A stretch of 9,277 nt of DNA from a bacterium (lineage in GTDB: Bacteria; UBP7; UBA6624), in contig JACNFQ010000035.1 in the NCBI GenBank assembly GCA_014384545.1, forward strand, positions 1-9,277. Reading direction: 5' to 3'. Both the position numbers and the translations under genes were made by a program. Positions 1,381 through 9,277 of this stretch are shown one piece after another (within the stretch, counting starts at the first letter, position 1; each line of letters starts with the position of its first letter). The notes below the pieces were generated by a model. The model had not been told where the DNA came from. It saw only the letters and a list, made by a program, of their open reading frames with translations, and searched no databases.

Positions 1381-3879
1381 ATGGCAAAGAAGAAAATGAA
1401 AGCATCAGCAAAACAAGGAACCGCAAAGAAGCGATGTGCTTTGAAGGTCTCCGAATGCACTTTTCAAGGGGATGGGGTTCCTATGAAAACAGAATGTAAA
1501 CCTCTTGACCATATCATCGGGCAAGATCGGGCAGTAGAGGCGATTCGGTTTGGGCTTTCTATGGATCGTAGAGGGTATAACATCTTCGTTGCTGGAGATA
1601 GTGGGATGGGGAGAGACTCAACAGTCAAGAGATTTCTTTCGAGACTTGCCTCCACAAAGGAGTCCACTGATGATTGGGTATTTGTTCATCACTTTGCCGC
1701 AAGAGATAAGCCAAAATGGCTCAAATTCCCTACAGGTACGGGAAAGGTCTTCAAAGAACAGATGGAAGAGCTCGTTGCGAGGTTGCGCGACGAAATCCCG
1801 AGCGCTTTTGAGGGGGGAGATTACAAAGAGCGCCTAGAGGCACTCCAAAAGGAATCCAGAGAGAAAAAGAAAGAGATATTCCAGAGTATGGAAGCAAAAG
1901 CGGAGGCACGTGGCTTTCGTCTAAAGAGGACGAGTATGGGGATTCTCTCCATTCCTACATGGGAGAAGAAGCCGATTGATGACAAAGCTTTCTTGGCGCT
2001 TCCCGAAGATGTTCAGCAGAAGATCAAAAGTGAAAAAGAGGCTTTACAGGACGATTTGAATGACCTACTTGAGGAGATTCAAGGGGTGGATGATGAGATT
2101 GGGAAGAGTGTCGCTGAACTGGATCGTCGGGTGCTCCTCTTTTCGGTAGGAAGACATATAGACAATTTGTTAGAAGAATATGGCGCAAACGAGAGGGTTT
2201 TGGAATGGTTGAATGAAGTCAAAGAAGATGTGCTTCTTCACGCTGATCAGTTTCGGTCGGAGAAGAATGGAGGGATGCCGATGATGATGGGGATGCCGAT
2301 GCCAGGAATGGACTCGGACTTTCGCCGTTACAAAGTCAATCTCCTCGTGGATCGAACAGATTGTCAAGGTGCGCCTGTTGTCCACGAACTCAACCCCTCT
2401 TTCCCCAATCTTGTGGGGAGAACTGAAAGGCGTGTTGAAATGGGGATGATGACGACCGATTTTACGATGATTCGGGGAGGCGCACTCCACGAAGCGAACG
2501 GAGGGTATCTCGTTCTAGATGCCTTGGATTTGTTGAAACATCCTTTGGCTTGGGAAGGGCTCAAGCGTGCACTCAGAGATGAATGTATCTGTATTGAAGA
2601 TATCGCAGAGCAGATGGGGTATGCGGCTACTAAGTCGATTGATCCTGAACCGATCCCTTTGGATGTCAAAGTCATCCTGATTGGAAACGCATGGATTTAT
2701 CACCTCCTCTACCAACATGATGAAGATTTTAGGGAACTATTCAAGATACGTGCCGATTTTGATGATCAATACGATTCGGGGAAAGACGCGAGGAACGATT
2801 ATGCTTGTTTCGTTCAGGCCCGTGTCGATGAGGAAGATCTGTTACCCTTTTCTGGAGCAGCGACAAGTAGGCTTTACGCGTATGGGGTTCGGATGGCAGG
2901 AGACCGTGAGAAAGTAACGACAAGGTTTGGGATTGTGACTGATTTGATGCGCGAGGCCGACCAGTGGGCTAGGTTGGAGAAGAAATCAGAAGTAGGAAGC
3001 GAAGATGTGCGTAAGGTTTGGATGATGAGAAAAGAGCGGGAAGGGCTCTATCCAGAAAGGATGGAGGAGATGATGCTACGGGACCACATTATGGTTTCCA
3101 CAGAAGGAAGCCGCGTTGGGTGTGTGAATGGTCTGGCTGTTTATCAACTGGCTGGGCATGCATTTGGTAAACCGAGCCGAATTACGGTCAATACATTCTT
3201 TGGCAAGAGTGGAGTTGTGAACATTGAGAGAGAGGCTAACCTATCGGGCACCATCCATACGAAAGGGCTCCTTATCCTTTCTGGTTGGTTGAATGAGACA
3301 TTTGGAAAAGAGAAGCCGATTCCGATTTCTGCAACGATTACCTTTGAGCAGTCTTACGGTTCGATTGATGGAGATTCGGCGTCTAGTACTGAACTTTACG
3401 GACTCCTTTCCTCCTTAGCCGAAGTGGGGATTGATCAAGGAATTGCTGTAACTGGCTCGGTCAACCAAAAAGGAGAGATTCAACCTATTGGAGGAGCTAA
3501 TGAGAAGATTGAAGGTTTTTTCTCACTCTGCAAGTCAAGGGGTTTGACAGGGACACAGGGTGTCATGATTCCAAGTAGGAATGTGGAGAATCTCGTTTTA
3601 GACGACGAAGTCATTGAAGCGATTAAGGAAGGGACATTTCACATTTGGGCTGTTTCTACCCTTGAAGAAGGGGTTGAGATTCTGACAGACAAGAAAGCAG
3701 GAGTTTGGAATCCCAAGACGAAGAAATGGACCAGAGGCTCCCTCTTTGCTGCCGTGGCAAAAAACTTTGAAGACCGATTCAAGGCGATAAAAGAGGAGAT
3801 GAAAGAGGTGGGAAAGAAGAAGAAGAAAGGGAAGAAAAAATCCCCTAAGAAGAAAACCCCCTCTAAGAAAAAGTCTTAG
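1381..3879 (+). CDS. Lon-family ATP-dependent protease, AAA_32 type (COG1067)
   Basis: This 832-residue protein is probably a cytosolic ATP-driven protease; no signal peptide or membrane segment is visible. A GQDRAVEAIRFGL segment at 47-59 leads into a Walker A-like loop, GDSGMGRDS (72-80), with Arg in place of the usual Lys, as is common in this family. A charged, probably coiled-coil helical insert spans about 145-250. A Met-rich stretch (299-310) precedes the conserved block RYKVN...GAPVV...NLVGRTE, and GGYLVLDA (374-381) is Walker B-like. The Lon proteolytic domain covers about 565-770, with catalytic Ser666 in GDSASS and Lys709 in GGANEKI. Their 43-residue spacing equals that of E. coli Lon (679/722). 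Family similarity runs nearly end to end, so the protease should be active. The N-terminus (1-18) and C-terminus (811-832) are both lysine-rich and look lineage-specific. ATG 1381 is the chosen start because of the promoter motif just upstream. The TAG stop shares bases with the stop of the opposing gene. Confidence 0.95.
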   Translation: MAKKKMKASAKQGTAKKRCALKVSECTFQGDGVPMKTECKPLDHIIGQDRAVEAIRFGLSMDRRGYNIFVAGDSGMGRDSTVKRFLSRLASTKESTDDWVFVHHFAARDKPKWLKFPTGTGKVFKEQMEELVARLRDEIPSAFEGGDYKERLEALQKESREKKKEIFQSMEAKAEARGFRLKRTSMGILSIPTWEKKPIDDKAFLALPEDVQQKIKSEKEALQDDLNDLLEEIQGVDDEIGKSVAELDRRVLLFSVGRHIDNLLEEYGANERVLEWLNEVKEDVLLHADQFRSEKNGGMPMMMGMPMPGMDSDFRRYKVNLLVDRTDCQGAPVVHELNPSFPNLVGRTERRVEMGMMTTDFTMIRGGALHEANGGYLVLDALDLLKHPLAWEGLKRALRDECICIEDIAEQMGYAATKSIDPEPIPLDVKVILIGNAWIYHLLYQHDEDFRELFKIRADFDDQYDSGKDARNDYACFVQARVDEEDLLPFSGAATSRLYAYGVRMAGDREKVTTRFGIVTDLMREADQWARLEKKSEVGSEDVRKVWMMRKEREGLYPERMEEMMLRDHIMVSTEGSRVGCVNGLAVYQLAGHAFGKPSRITVNTFFGKSGVVNIEREANLSGTIHTKGLLILSGWLNETFGKEKPIPISATITFEQSYGSIDGDSASSTELYGLLSSLAEVGIDQGIAVTGSVNQKGEIQPIGGANEKIEGFFSLCKSRGLTGTQGVMIPSRNVENLVLDDEVIEAIKEGTFHIWAVSTLEEGVEILTDKKAGVWNPKTKKWTRGSLFAAVAKNFEDRFKAIKEEMKEVGKKKKKGKKKSPKKKTPSKKKS

Positions 3880-4433: not shown

Positions 4434-5798
4434 TTGAAGCGTGTCGCTGTATTGTCCATTGACGGGGTTCCCATCGACTTGTGGAATCGATTCATGGATG
4501 AAGGGCTATTGCCTAGGTTCTCTGCTTTTTCGGAAGCGTGTGGGTCTAAAGCTGTACGGATGCGTTCGGTTCACCCATGCGAATCAGCCACAGCCTGGAC
4601 CTCTTATGCTACAGGAAACAACCCCGGAAGACATAATATCTATGGATTTACCGACAGGGATTTGGATGGGGATGGTCGGATGATTCTGAACAATGCGATG
4701 AGACGAACGGGATCTACGATTTGGTCTCGGCTGAGTGAATCGGGGAAACGTGCTGTCGCCATCAATGTGCCCGTAAATTTTCCTCCCGAAGAGGTGAACG
4801 GGACGATTATCGGGGGGTTCCTAGCACCTGGGATTGATGGTATCGTTCATCCCCGTTCTCTTGAAAAAGAGCTCCATAGGAGGGGATACAAAGCAGACCC
4901 TGACAACAGCTTAGTGCGCACAGATCTAGAAGCTTGGTATCAGGACTTAGTCCATACCGAAGAAGTACGCGTTAGGCTGGGGCAAGACCTCTTTGATGAA
5001 GGGGGGTGGGACCTCTTCCATCTCCACATAATGGGGACGGATCGGTTGCACCATTTTCTGTGGGAACAACATGAGAACAAAGAGCAACCATGGGAAGAGA
5101 AGTTCCGTTCCTTTTACAGGAAAGTAGATGCGTGGTTGGGTTCCTTCTTTGACCGGGATGATGGAGAGACCCTTTGGGTCGTTCTCTCGGATCATGGTTT
5201 TTGTGGCATCAAATCAGAGGTTGACATCAATGCACTCCTTGAAAGAGAAGGGCTCCTTCTTTTGGGCGATCATCCTTTTGAATTCTGTAGAAATGTCCTT
5301 CCTGATTCTCTCTGTTATTCGATGTTGCCCGGTCGTATCTATATCAATCTTCAGGGTCGAGAGCCGAATGGAACCGTTCCCGTGGGAGATTATCATGATG
5401 TCCGAGAAAGGGTGAGAGACGCTCTCATGGATATGAGGACAGAGCATGGGTGTCCTCTATTCAAGGAGGTCTTTCGGAGAGAGGAGATTTACAGAGATGC
5501 CTCGGGGGAGCATTCCGATGGTTATTTGAAGGGGAAACCCTTGGGAACTTCATACGAGAAAGCACCCGATCTATTGGCCTGGAATGAAGAGGGCTTTGAC
5601 TTGAAGGCAGGATTCTCTTCAGGGGCGACTCCCTTCCGAAAAGAGCATATCAATGGGATGCATACTTGGCATGATGCACTCCTGTGGGTGTCAAAGGGGG
5701 AAGTGATTGCTGATGCCTCTATCCAAGATGTCGCTCCTGCCATCCTGAGTATTCTGGGTGTTGAGGGATTGGGGATGGATGGAAACCCTAGCTTTTGA
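4434..5798 (+). CDS. Alkaline-phosphatase-superfamily protein (type I phosphodiesterase/nucleotide pyrophosphatase-like)
   Basis: This 454-residue protein is likely a two-metal phosphohydrolase acting on phosphodiesters or related esters; the substrate cannot be read from the sequence. The metal and catalytic sites of the fold are recognisable. Asp10 lies in LSIDG, and the nucleophile region SATAWTSYATGNNPGRH (51-67) most likely uses Ser51, where relatives often have Thr. Asp203 and His207 lie in GTDRLHHFLW, Asp253-His254 in LSDHG, and a C-terminal His, probably His410, in GMHTWHD. Residues 74-81 (DRDLDGDG) resemble a calcium-binding DxDxDG loop. No signal peptide is present, so the protein is probably cytoplasmic. 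TTG 4434 is the start because the first strand (KRVAVLSIDG) needs it and TAGGATTA lies just upstream. The stop overlaps the start of lepA, so the two are probably co-transcribed and coupled. Confidence 0.88.
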   Translation: MKRVAVLSIDGVPIDLWNRFMDEGLLPRFSAFSEACGSKAVRMRSVHPCESATAWTSYATGNNPGRHNIYGFTDRDLDGDGRMILNNAMRRTGSTIWSRLSESGKRAVAINVPVNFPPEEVNGTIIGGFLAPGIDGIVHPRSLEKELHRRGYKADPDNSLVRTDLEAWYQDLVHTEEVRVRLGQDLFDEGGWDLFHLHIMGTDRLHHFLWEQHENKEQPWEEKFRSFYRKVDAWLGSFFDRDDGETLWVVLSDHGFCGIKSEVDINALLEREGLLLLGDHPFEFCRNVLPDSLCYSMLPGRIYINLQGREPNGTVPVGDYHDVRERVRDALMDMRTEHGCPLFKEVFRREEIYRDASGEHSDGYLKGKPLGTSYEKAPDLLAWNEEGFDLKAGFSSGATPFRKEHINGMHTWHDALLWVSKGEVIADASIQDVAPAILSILGVEGLGMDGNPSF

Positions 5799-7576
5799 TG
5801 ACGGCATCCATCCGCAATTTTGCCATCGTTGCTCATATTGACCACGGGAAGAGCACCCTCGCTGACCGTATTCTTGAACTAACGGGTGCTGTGGGAGATC
5901 GGGAGATGCGGTCCCAATTCCTGGACAGGATGGATATTGAGAGAGAACGGGGTATTACGATCAAGGCTCAGACAGTTTCGGTCGTGTGGGAAGGCGCAGG
6001 AGGCTCCTGGCATCTCAATCTCATTGACACGCCAGGGCATGTTGATTTTACCTACGAAGTCTCACGGGCATTGGCAGCGTGTGAGGGTATCATTCTTGTG
6101 GTAGATGCCTCCCAAGGAATCGAAGCCCAAACAGTCGCCCATTTCAACACGGCAAAGGAGATGGGATTGGTGGTGTTACCCTGTGTCAACAAGTGTGATA
6201 TTGAGGGGATTGATGTGGATGAAGCAGTGATTGAGTTGGCTGATTGGATTGAGTGCGACCCCGAAGAGGTGGTGCGGGTGAGTGCCAAGAGTGGATTTGG
6301 ACTAGAGAACTTATTGGAAGCCGTCGTAGAGAAGATACCCCCCCCTTCTGTTGATAAAGAAGGTTTGAGAGGACTGGTCTTTGATTCAGAATATGATAAG
6401 TATCGGGGTGTGGTTGCTCATGTCAGGATGGTAGGTGGGCATCTTGAAACGGGTGTTCCTTTGAAGATGATGGGTGCAAAAGCGCCCTTTGAAGCACTTG
6501 AAGTGGGCACTTTTGGTGCGAAGCGCATTCCCACTAAGGGGTTGGATGAGGGACAAGTGGGGTACATCGTAACCAACCTCAAAGAGATCTCTCTTTGCCG
6601 TGTAGGAGATACAGTGGGCCATCTCAAGGCAGAGTGCGAGGCCTTGCCCGGGTATGAACCCGCCAAGAGGATGGTATTTGCCAGTCTTTACCCTGTAGAA
6701 AGTGATGATTTTGCAAAGTTGCGAACGAGCATCGAGAAGCTCTCTTTGAATGACGCTAGTCTCTCGTGGGAAGTAGAGAATAATCCCAGTTTTGGGTTTG
6801 GTTTGCGTATGGGATTCCTTGGTCCCCTCCATAAGGAGGTGATTCAAGAACGACTAGAGAGAGAGTTTGATCTAGAGCTTATCTCTACAGCACCCACAGT
6901 CGCCTACCGGATTACCCCTAATAACGAAGAGCGAAGGGATGTAGCTCGCGTGGGTGATGTCCCTCAAGATATCGCCATCGAGAAATGGGAGGAGCCGATG
7001 GTGGAAGCGACTATTTCGTGTCCCGATGAGCATTTGGGCTCGGTCTTGGCATTGGTTCAATCACGGAGGGGCGAGTTCTTGGGCATGGAGAATCCTGGTT
7101 TGCGGGTATTGGCTAAGTATCGCATGCCCATGGCGGAGATTGTCGCCAATTTCTTTACGGCGTTGAAGTCGGCTACACAGGGGTATGCTGGTTTGGATTA
7201 CAGGTTTTCGGGGTGGCAAGAAACGAAACTCCAAGTGGTGGAAATCTTCGTTGCGGGTGACAATGTGGAGGCTTTGGGGATGATACTTCCCGTAGATCGT
7301 GTTTACTCCACTTCTCGCATTCTGGTGGACAAGTTAGCAGAGGAGATTCCTCGCCACCAGTTCAAAGTTCCAGTCCAAGCTTTTTCGGGTGGACGAATTG
7401 TTGCAGCTAAGACGATTCCTCCTTTTAGGAAGGACGTAACCGCAAAGTGTTATGGCGGGGATATTACGAGGAAGAGGAAGTTGCTCAAGAAACAGAAAGA
7501 GGGGAAAAAAAGGATGAAGAATGTAGGGCGAGTTGCGATTCCCCAAAGTGCACTTCTAGCCCTCTTGGATGTATGA
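5795..7576 (+). CDS. lepA: Elongation factor 4 (LepA), ribosome back-translocating GTPase
   Basis: This 593-residue protein is full length for the family (about 600). The G-domain motifs are AHIDHGKST (13-21), the switch-I RERGIT (51-55 region), DTPGH (78-82) and NKCD (132-135), followed by SAKSG. EF-G-like domains follow, then the LepA-specific C-terminal domain with AKCYGGDITRKRKLLKKQK and GRVAIPQSALLALL. LepA binds the ribosome, hydrolyses GTP, and helps translation or 30S maturation under ionic and cold stress. Translation can begin at TTG 5795, overlapping the upstream TGA by TTGA, or at the adjacent ATG 5798 (TGATG); both imply coupling to the phosphodiesterase gene. A run of eight C at 6338-6345 encodes Pro-Pro-Pro in frame. 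The final ATGA overlaps the start codon of the truB relic, so lepA and truB were once coupled. Confidence 0.98.
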   Translation: MMTASIRNFAIVAHIDHGKSTLADRILELTGAVGDREMRSQFLDRMDIERERGITIKAQTVSVVWEGAGGSWHLNLIDTPGHVDFTYEVSRALAACEGIILVVDASQGIEAQTVAHFNTAKEMGLVVLPCVNKCDIEGIDVDEAVIELADWIECDPEEVVRVSAKSGFGLENLLEAVVEKIPPPSVDKEGLRGLVFDSEYDKYRGVVAHVRMVGGHLETGVPLKMMGAKAPFEALEVGTFGAKRIPTKGLDEGQVGYIVTNLKEISLCRVGDTVGHLKAECEALPGYEPAKRMVFASLYPVESDDFAKLRTSIEKLSLNDASLSWEVENNPSFGFGLRMGFLGPLHKEVIQERLEREFDLELISTAPTVAYRITPNNEERRDVARVGDVPQDIAIEKWEEPMVEATISCPDEHLGSVLALVQSRRGEFLGMENPGLRVLAKYRMPMAEIVANFFTALKSATQGYAGLDYRFSGWQETKLQVVEIFVAGDNVEALGMILPVDRVYSTSRILVDKLAEEIPRHQFKVPVQAFSGGRIVAAKTIPPFRKDVTAKCYGGDITRKRKLLKKQKEGKKRMKNVGRVAIPQSALLALLDV

Positions 7577-7891
7577 ACGAAGCCGCTCCTTCGGGGCTCT
7601 TATTGGCAGAGAAACCCCAAGGGTGGACCAAGCCAAGATGTCGTCTCAAGAATCAGGCGTGTTTCGGGGATTAGATAGGCAGGGCATGAGGGGACTTTGA
7701 TCCCACAAGAGATACTTTAGGGATAGCTACGAACTTTGATTCGTCGCTGACACGGCTCGAAAAGGGCTACAAGGGGTGGCCGTTGGGGGTCTCTAAACAA
7801 GCTAAGACTTTCGACTTCGCCATCAACGAGGCGATTGTTCCCTGTCCGACTTGAGGAGAGGAAATGGTCGTTTCTTGAGACCGGAACAAAC
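7573..7891 (+). pseudogene. truB: Decayed, 3'-truncated truB (tRNA pseudouridine-55 synthase)
   Basis: The ATG at 7573 overlaps the lepA stop as ATGA and begins MNEAAPSGLLLAEKPQGWT, the TruB N-terminal SGxLLxxKPxGxT motif. One extra A near 7630 shifts the frame, and the +1 frame continues with the family's SQDVVSRIRR and then GIR-stop-AGHEGTLIP, a damaged version of GxRKVGHAGTLDP, with TAG at 7676-7678. A one-base loss near 7700 removes the catalytic Asp codon (LDP read as LIP) and restores the first frame. That frame reads LGIATNFDSSLTRLEKGYKG, LGV and TFDF, fitting the later TruB core, up to TGA 7852-7854. Weak similarity persists to about 7890. Only about a third of a normal TruB (roughly 300 residues) remains before the opposing gene. 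The relic cannot make an active enzyme. Several independent lesions within 300 bp make sequencing error unlikely, although the neighbouring genes are intact. Confidence 0.82.
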
Positions 7892-7906
7892 CTAGAAGTC
7901 TAGGTT
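7889..7906. repeat. Imperfect 18-bp palindrome at the truB relic / opposing-gene junction
   Basis: AACCTAGA (7889-7896) and TCTAGGTT (7899-7906) are exact reverse complements separated by AG. The palindrome spans the TAG stop (7894-7892) of the minus-strand gene and the last recognisable bases of the truB relic. The loop is too short and no T-tract follows, so it is not a convincing intrinsic terminator. It may be coincidental or mark an old junction. Confidence 0.5.
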
Positions 7907-8392
7907 CAAGTCGCTCTTTGGGCGCATGGGGAACGCCTTGATCTCTGAAGGCGGAGCACCAAAAGCTTTCACCAGCCAAAGTTCCACATGGTAGAGATTG
8001 CGAAGAATATGACGGACCGAACGGGCTAAGTAATCAGCGGTCAAACCATCTTCTCGAATCGGAACCGAGTGTTGAATACGCCAAACCCGTCTTTTTTCGT
8101 TTTGAACGAATCCCGTTTCGGGAGGTCGCTTGTTTAGGTCCAAACGTAGATCTGTCTCAAACGCTTTATAGGCAGGATCGGGGAGTCCTTCAAGTTTTTC
8201 GACGAGTTTGGGCGCAATCTCTTGATTCGCCATAATGACCACCAAGTCTTCTTTCCCTATGGGATTCATCGCGATCAATCGAAAGGGTTGTTTGGGAAAC
8301 TGAATCTCCCAGGCCCAATCTGCTTCTCGAATAGGAGCCTCTTTCAGGATGGCACCTTCGTCCATCAACCATTGGCGAACGGTCGCTTTCAA
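7892..8392 (-). CDS. Small uncharacterised protein, possibly DUF2299-like
   Basis: This 166-residue soluble protein has no signal peptide or membrane segment. An N-terminal helix (VRQWLMDEGAILKE) is followed by a strand-rich part (ADWAWEIQFP, FRLIAMNPIG, DLVVIMANQ), helices, a second strand pair (LRLDLNK, WRIQHSVPI) and a long C-terminal helix (TADYLARSVRHILRNLYHVELWLVKAFG). This order resembles the T3S-chaperone/YbjN-like fold and especially DUF2299, which I know mainly from archaea. The match is by memory of pattern and is tentative; no function is assigned. The TTG start at 8392 overlaps the TGA of the upstream glycosyltransferase by TTGA, which, together with the N-terminal helix, favours it over the ATG at residue 10. 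The two genes are therefore probably coupled, with the glycosyltransferase first. Confidence 0.75.
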   Translation of the reverse strand: MKATVRQWLMDEGAILKEAPIREADWAWEIQFPKQPFRLIAMNPIGKEDLVVIMANQEIAPKLVEKLEGLPDPAYKAFETDLRLDLNKRPPETGFVQNEKRRVWRIQHSVPIREDGLTADYLARSVRHILRNLYHVELWLVKAFGAPPSEIKAFPMRPKSDLNLDF

Positions 8393-9277
8393 AGGGACGG
8401 ATGGAGCTCTCTAAGGGATTGGACTTGTCTCTTCATGAGGAAAGGCAATGATAAGTCCCTCAAAGCGATTCCTTGCGCCCTATTGGCCAACCTCTTCCGA
8501 AGGGTGGGGTTGTCCAAAAGGGTGCAAATGGCACGAGCAGCGCTTTCGTGGTCACCCGGAGGGACAAGGAGCCCTGTCTCCTTATCCAGAATGAAATCCA
8601 GAGGACCTCCATGGGCTGCCGAGACAACAGCGCGACCACTCGCCATCGCTTCTAACAAAGTTCTTCCAAACGCTTCAGGTGTAATGGGGGGGAGAGAAAC
8701 GACGACAGTGGCTCGTTGATACCACGGTCGTGGATCGGATACTGCAGGGACGAAATGGAAGGAAGAGGATAGCTGGTACTCCTTGATCAAGTCATGGGCA
8801 TCGTCATAAGCTCGTTGGGATTCAATGGGACCCAACCAAACGCCATGGAGTGAGGGATGTCTCTCTTTAGCCAAAGCGAAGGCGCGGACGAAGAGGGAAA
8901 CTCCTTTCTGTTGGGTAAGCCGACCCACCCCTAGAACGACATCAGAAGTCCCCCAAACTTCCACAGCAGCGGGTGAAATCTCAAATTGAGTGGGGTCAAT
9001 CCCTCGTGGATGGACCTCTATCTTATGACCAGAAACGCCCAACTTCTCACGGGCATGGGAAGAGGCTGATGAACTCGCTACCCAAACGCGAGTCGCCCTA
9101 GAGAGAACCTTGGAGAAAGCGTGGGGGCGATAGAGCCCCCACATTCCAGCGACCCACGGTCGAGATGGAGTTGAAGTCATTAAACCGATCAGGTGAGGAA
9201 CCCGACTGTGGGTCAATAGCAGGGCGGGTTCATTCCCAAATAGTCGCATTAGTTTGACACTCGCCTTGAGAATAGAA
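8389..9277 (-). CDS. GT4-family (GT-B fold) glycosyltransferase, 5' partial
   Basis: The frame is open to the right edge, giving 295 residues to the TGA at 8391-8389. An ATG at 9249 is probably internal: the residues before and after it (ILKASVKLMRLFGNEPALLLTHSR) fit the middle of the N-terminal Rossmann domain, which usually reads PDVVHAHSR, so about 80-100 residues are missing. Counting from that ATG, VWVASSSASSHARE (about 55-68) and the IEVHPRGIDPTQFE segment (77-90) form the domain linker. LGVGRLTQQKG (106-115) opens the nucleotide-sugar-binding domain, and PEAFGRTLLEAMASG (191-205) carries the EX7E motif with Glu192 and Glu200. GGPLDFILDKETGLLVPPGD (214-233) is also typical. The enzyme should transfer a sugar from a nucleotide donor, probably at the cytoplasmic face for a polysaccharide or glycolipid; donor and acceptor are unknown. 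It is coupled to the DUF2299-like gene downstream. Confidence 0.9.
   Translation of the reverse strand, partial: SILKASVKLMRLFGNEPALLLTHSRVPHLIGLMTSTPSRPWVAGMWGLYRPHAFSKVLSRATRVWVASSSASSHAREKLGVSGHKIEVHPRGIDPTQFEISPAAVEVWGTSDVVLGVGRLTQQKGVSLFVRAFALAKERHPSLHGVWLGPIESQRAYDDAHDLIKEYQLSSSFHFVPAVSDPRPWYQRATVVVSLPPITPEAFGRTLLEAMASGRAVVSAAHGGPLDFILDKETGLLVPPGDHESAARAICTLLDNPTLRKRLANRAQGIALRDLSLPFLMKRQVQSLRELHPSL

Follow-up and report, generated by a model that had tools for sequence, protein, structure and literature searches.

A truncated and probably decayed truB gene downstream of lepA in a genome of the candidate phylum UBP7

TruB is the enzyme that makes pseudouridine-55 (Psi55), a nearly universal mark on bacterial tRNA. 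Losses of its gene have been published for the hemoplasmas, M. genitalium, and M. pneumoniae (PMC4014445) and for a Coxiella-like endosymbiont of ticks (PMC4494066), so that truB loss as such is already known from other bacteria; and in E. coli the gene is non-essential under most conditions, though contributing to fitness in co-culture (PMC10969862). The locus described here comes from UBP7, or 'Candidatus Bimafiota', a lineage with six genomes listed, 0.83–1.39 Mb in size, which come from saline and marine waters (PMC11382960); the source assembly, a draft of 1.394 Mb in 107 contigs with an estimated completeness of 78.8%, fits the top of that size range. This genome resembles those of the hemoplasmas, M. 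genitalium, M. pneumoniae (PMC4014445), and the Coxiella-like endosymbiont (PMC4494066) in being small and in having also lost, or in lacking, other tRNA-modification genes; but unlike those host-bound organisms, the records of UBP7 are from saline and marine water (PMC11382960), and a partly decayed truB is still visible in its genome.

Within the window—by which term we mean the whole stretch of 9,277 nucleotides analyzed—a frameshift-aware local alignment matched positions 7594–7822 of the forward strand to residues 4–87 of the TruB from two relatives, with scores of 86 and 89 and identities of 34–35 out of 74 aligned residues. The references for that comparison were the intact 231-residue orthologues of the two nearest genomes, G001 and G002, which belong to the same family as the source genome, though to a different genus, and whose database records read 'bacterium UBP7_UBA7824' and 'bacterium isolate SP4379.' Among 500 shuffles of the DNA the top score was 52, and among 500 shuffles of the protein 56 (mean 30 and s.d. 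4.3 in both controls); the reverse strand scored 31, and the best TruB score on either strand of the window, once the tiles overlapping the remnant were removed, was 49. The similarity that the sequence-only reading had proposed to seek by such a frameshift-aware comparison is accordingly present, and the three-frame translation of 7573–7911 bears out its description of TruB motifs in alternating frames. The motifs G-LL-KP--T, S-DVV-RIRR, and GH-GTLDP occur in the same order as in TruB (PF01509, TIGR00431). Table 1 collects the features of the locus.

Table 1. Features of the truB remnant and of its neighborhood in the window
Feature	Position	Strand	Basis
Lon-like (LonC/LonB-like) protease, intact, syntenic	1381–3879	+	domain profiles; about 56% identity to relatives
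Protein of the type I phosphodiesterase family, intact and in synteny	4434–5798	+	PF01663; 47–48% identity to relatives
Intact lepA (elongation factor 4), the upstream member of the coupled pair	5795–7576	+	NCBIfam TIGR01393, 764 bits; 65–66% identity to relatives
Probable truB pseudogene (residues about 1–87 of 231)	7573–7822	+	frameshift-aware alignment to intact orthologues and junction comparison
Frame break after the ...KPQGWT motif	7630	+	frameshift-aware alignment
In-frame TAG stop	7676–7678	+	frame translation and alignment; stop inside match also in TIGR00431 and orthologue-protein searches
Lost base within the codon for the catalytic Asp of GHxGTLDP, where the reading frame changes	7697–7702	+	alignment
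Deletion of ~18 nt (six codons) relative to the relatives	7715–7740 (about 7725)	+	alignment
Remaining sequence, in which TruB homology is no longer detectable; C-terminal ~144 codons absent	7823–7891	+	
DUF2299 protein, convergent neighbor	7892–8392	-	PF10061
Glycosyltransferase group 1, new neighbor past the synteny break	8389–9249	-	PF00534

The genomic position of the remnant is that of the relatives' intact truB. The start codon of the remnant overlaps the lepA stop in an ATGA at 7573–7576, and the same overlap joins lepA to an intact truB in both G001 and G002; this finding, along with the homology in excess of the shuffled controls, upholds the earlier claim that a truB coupled to lepA is decaying here, and likewise answers the suggestion that close relatives be compared. 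The order POR–Lon–phosphodiesterase–lepA–truB is common to the window, from its start, and to G001, the POR (an oxidoreductase) being 57–60% identical to the relatives' proteins; the upstream order in G002 is the same, with the compared stretch ending inside the POR. A scan of genome contigs by phosphodiesterase alignment recovered only two loci, which were those already known from synteny, and the same type of scan among viral contigs revealed no relatives of the phosphodiesterase. As to the Lon-like protease, that protein combines LonC helical and LonB AAA domains with a lysine-rich tail, and its scores against the known Lon equivalog models fall far short of their curated cut-offs. By the above-chance homology of its N-terminal domain and by its orthologous position, the remnant is best classed, on sequence comparison, as a pseudogene of truB rather than as a functional TruB.

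The sequence-only reading had listed an insertion near 7630, a TAG at 7676–7678, a deletion near 7700 hitting the catalytic Asp codon, and a TGA at 7852–7854. The alignment places a frame break at the first of these positions, confirms the TAG, and puts the base loss at about 7697, within the catalytic Asp codon of GT-L-D-P. The TGA exists, but lies past the last alignable residue, detectable homology stopping at about 7822. That list was moreover incomplete: it omitted the six-codon gap, an additional weak frame break that the alignment shows at about 7807, and the largest lesion of all, which is the loss of the C-terminal ~144 of the 231 residues, or about 60% of the gene. When residues 88–231 of TruB were compared with the window by tblastn, only chance-level matches were obtained, and a search of the whole assembly recovered no C-terminal TruB fragment elsewhere, the remnant in the window being the sole match. 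The remnant thus differs from a functional TruB in having a broken frame, with no single open reading frame spanning the N- and C-terminal domains, and a catalytic Asp codon that has lost a base. Rescue by programmed frameshifting or stop read-through was considered and rejected, because the catalytic codon is damaged and most of the protein is missing.

Synteny with the relatives ends at truB. There, the DUF2299 and glycosyltransferase genes, which overlap by 4 bases, point convergently at the remnant, and the genes downstream from truB in the relatives are unrelated to either one. We found no match to the DUF2299 protein in G001 or G002, no match to the glycosyltransferase in the truB regions of the relatives, and no credible match in the window to the relatives' three tested downstream proteins. 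Given that the DUF2299 protein is unmatched in both relatives, the DUF2299–glycosyltransferase block may have been acquired or rearranged; and the simplest reading of the missing 3' part of truB is that it was removed by a deletion or a rearrangement.

Regarding the consequences for Psi55, the sequence-only reading had left three alternatives: a second copy of truB, a replacement enzyme, or a lineage devoid of that modification. In the source assembly the PF01509 profile gave no match, though 55 of the 60 genomes compared were positive, and searches of the 1.39 Mb with the TIGR00431 profile and with the orthologue protein matched only the remnant in the window; in the same assembly, 79% complete, Pus10 (TIGR01213) likewise had no match. 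Because neither a second truB nor Pus10 was found there, the last of the three alternatives is the most likely: the gene would have decayed during genome reduction and Psi55 would be absent. We assign a probability of roughly 0.85 to the reading that this truB is a pseudogene, whose 3' 60% was deleted in this species subsequent to an ancestor with a coupled lepA–truB pair and whose stub has since decayed.

The notion that Psi55 is supplied from elsewhere in the genome, by an intact paralogue or by a truB acquired horizontally, is improbable. Such a copy could lie unseen, as only 79% of the genome is estimated to be assembled and about a fifth is accordingly missing; no tRNA gene for His was recovered among the 42 found, which together serve 19 amino acids, and this absence indicates that the missing part is real, although perhaps smaller than the completeness estimate implies. 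Against a second copy stands the lack of any TruB match beyond the remnant in the assembled sequence, along with the rarity of genomes having two PF01509 matches (4 of the 367 positive genomes listed). We consider it more improbable still that Psi55 is made by a synthase of the RluA family with a changed specificity, or by an enzyme of some unknown family. Two proteins of the PF00849 family are indeed present, and U54–U55–C56 in a normal T-loop is kept in all 42 tRNA genes; but the conservation of U55 would be expected whether or not that base is modified, and is thus silent on its state. Two Arg tRNAs that the T-loop script had flagged as odd proved to be misplacements, their 3' ends showing ordinary GGTTC T-arms. 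The best family matches of the two synthases are to the RluA subfamily, with RluD the nearest, and to the RsuA/RluB type, so that both are best read, from those matches, as rRNA enzymes; G001, whose truB is intact, also has two PF00849 proteins, so that these are no obvious replacement, and Pus10, as stated, is absent from the assembly.

That truB is in fact intact, and only looks broken through an assembly or sequencing error, is the least credible of the alternatives. The assembly is a draft in many contigs and indels are a classic type of error; nevertheless, the frames of lepA, Lon, the phosphodiesterase, DUF2299, and the glycosyltransferase are all open on this contig, which integrity of the coding genes in the window argues for a good sequence quality. 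Since the neighboring genes are intact and some 60% of truB is missing outright, such an error is unlikely, and the mixture of lesions—a stop codon, insertions or deletions of differing length, and that extensive loss—together with the failure of the missing C-terminal part to appear anywhere else in the assembly, weighs in the same direction.

The absence of TruB in bacteria is uncommon but recurrent. In a broad sample with a requested completeness of at least 97%, PF01509 was missing from 19 of 386 other near-complete genomes; with the source genome as the twentieth negative, 367 of 387 were positive. The negatives include G004, G213, and G286 of family f3; G099, G188, and G332 of f98; G148 and G300 of f40; G058; and others; in G058 all that remains is a weak match to the C-terminal part of TruB, 36 residues long. 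As families f3, f98, and f40 are negative repeatedly, the absence seems to be clade-wide in some groups.

TruA, the synthase of tRNA Psi38–40, was also undetected in the three UBP7 genomes (the source, G001, and G002; 79, 86, and 62% complete) with the PF01416 and TIGR00071 profiles, which among 14 control genomes were positive in only 12; if the gaps in the assemblies are independent, the probability that TruA was missed by chance in all three is ~1%. This result suggests that TruA was lost in the UBP7 lineage before truB. The ancestor of that lineage would have carried lepA and truB as a translationally coupled pair; the 3' 60% of truB would then have been deleted in this species, probably along with the rearrangement bringing in the DUF2299–glycosyltransferase block, and the remaining N-terminal stub would have gathered the frame breaks, the stop, and the damage to the catalytic Asp codon, although we infer this order of the large deletion relative to the smaller lesions. 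The tRNAs of the organism would now carry an unmodified U55. The loss would have been tolerable, given that E. coli can dispense with truB under most growth conditions, and would be consistent with tRNA modification eroding in general in a small genome.

The remnant itself is an ordinary pseudogene, well supported, in an unusual lineage, and does not indicate a new system. Its value resides in documenting a truB loss in progress in a little-studied marine candidate phylum, where intact orthologues at the same position are available for comparison. Tentatively, and with somewhat less than even confidence, we envisage a marine lineage not bound to a host that lost TruA earlier and TruB recently, leaving almost no pseudouridine in its tRNAs, and in which the loss of truB has been caught part-way between sister genera. 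In conjunction with the apparent absence of TruA, the decay of truB suggests that tRNA pseudouridylation may be largely dispensable outside the parasites and endosymbionts.
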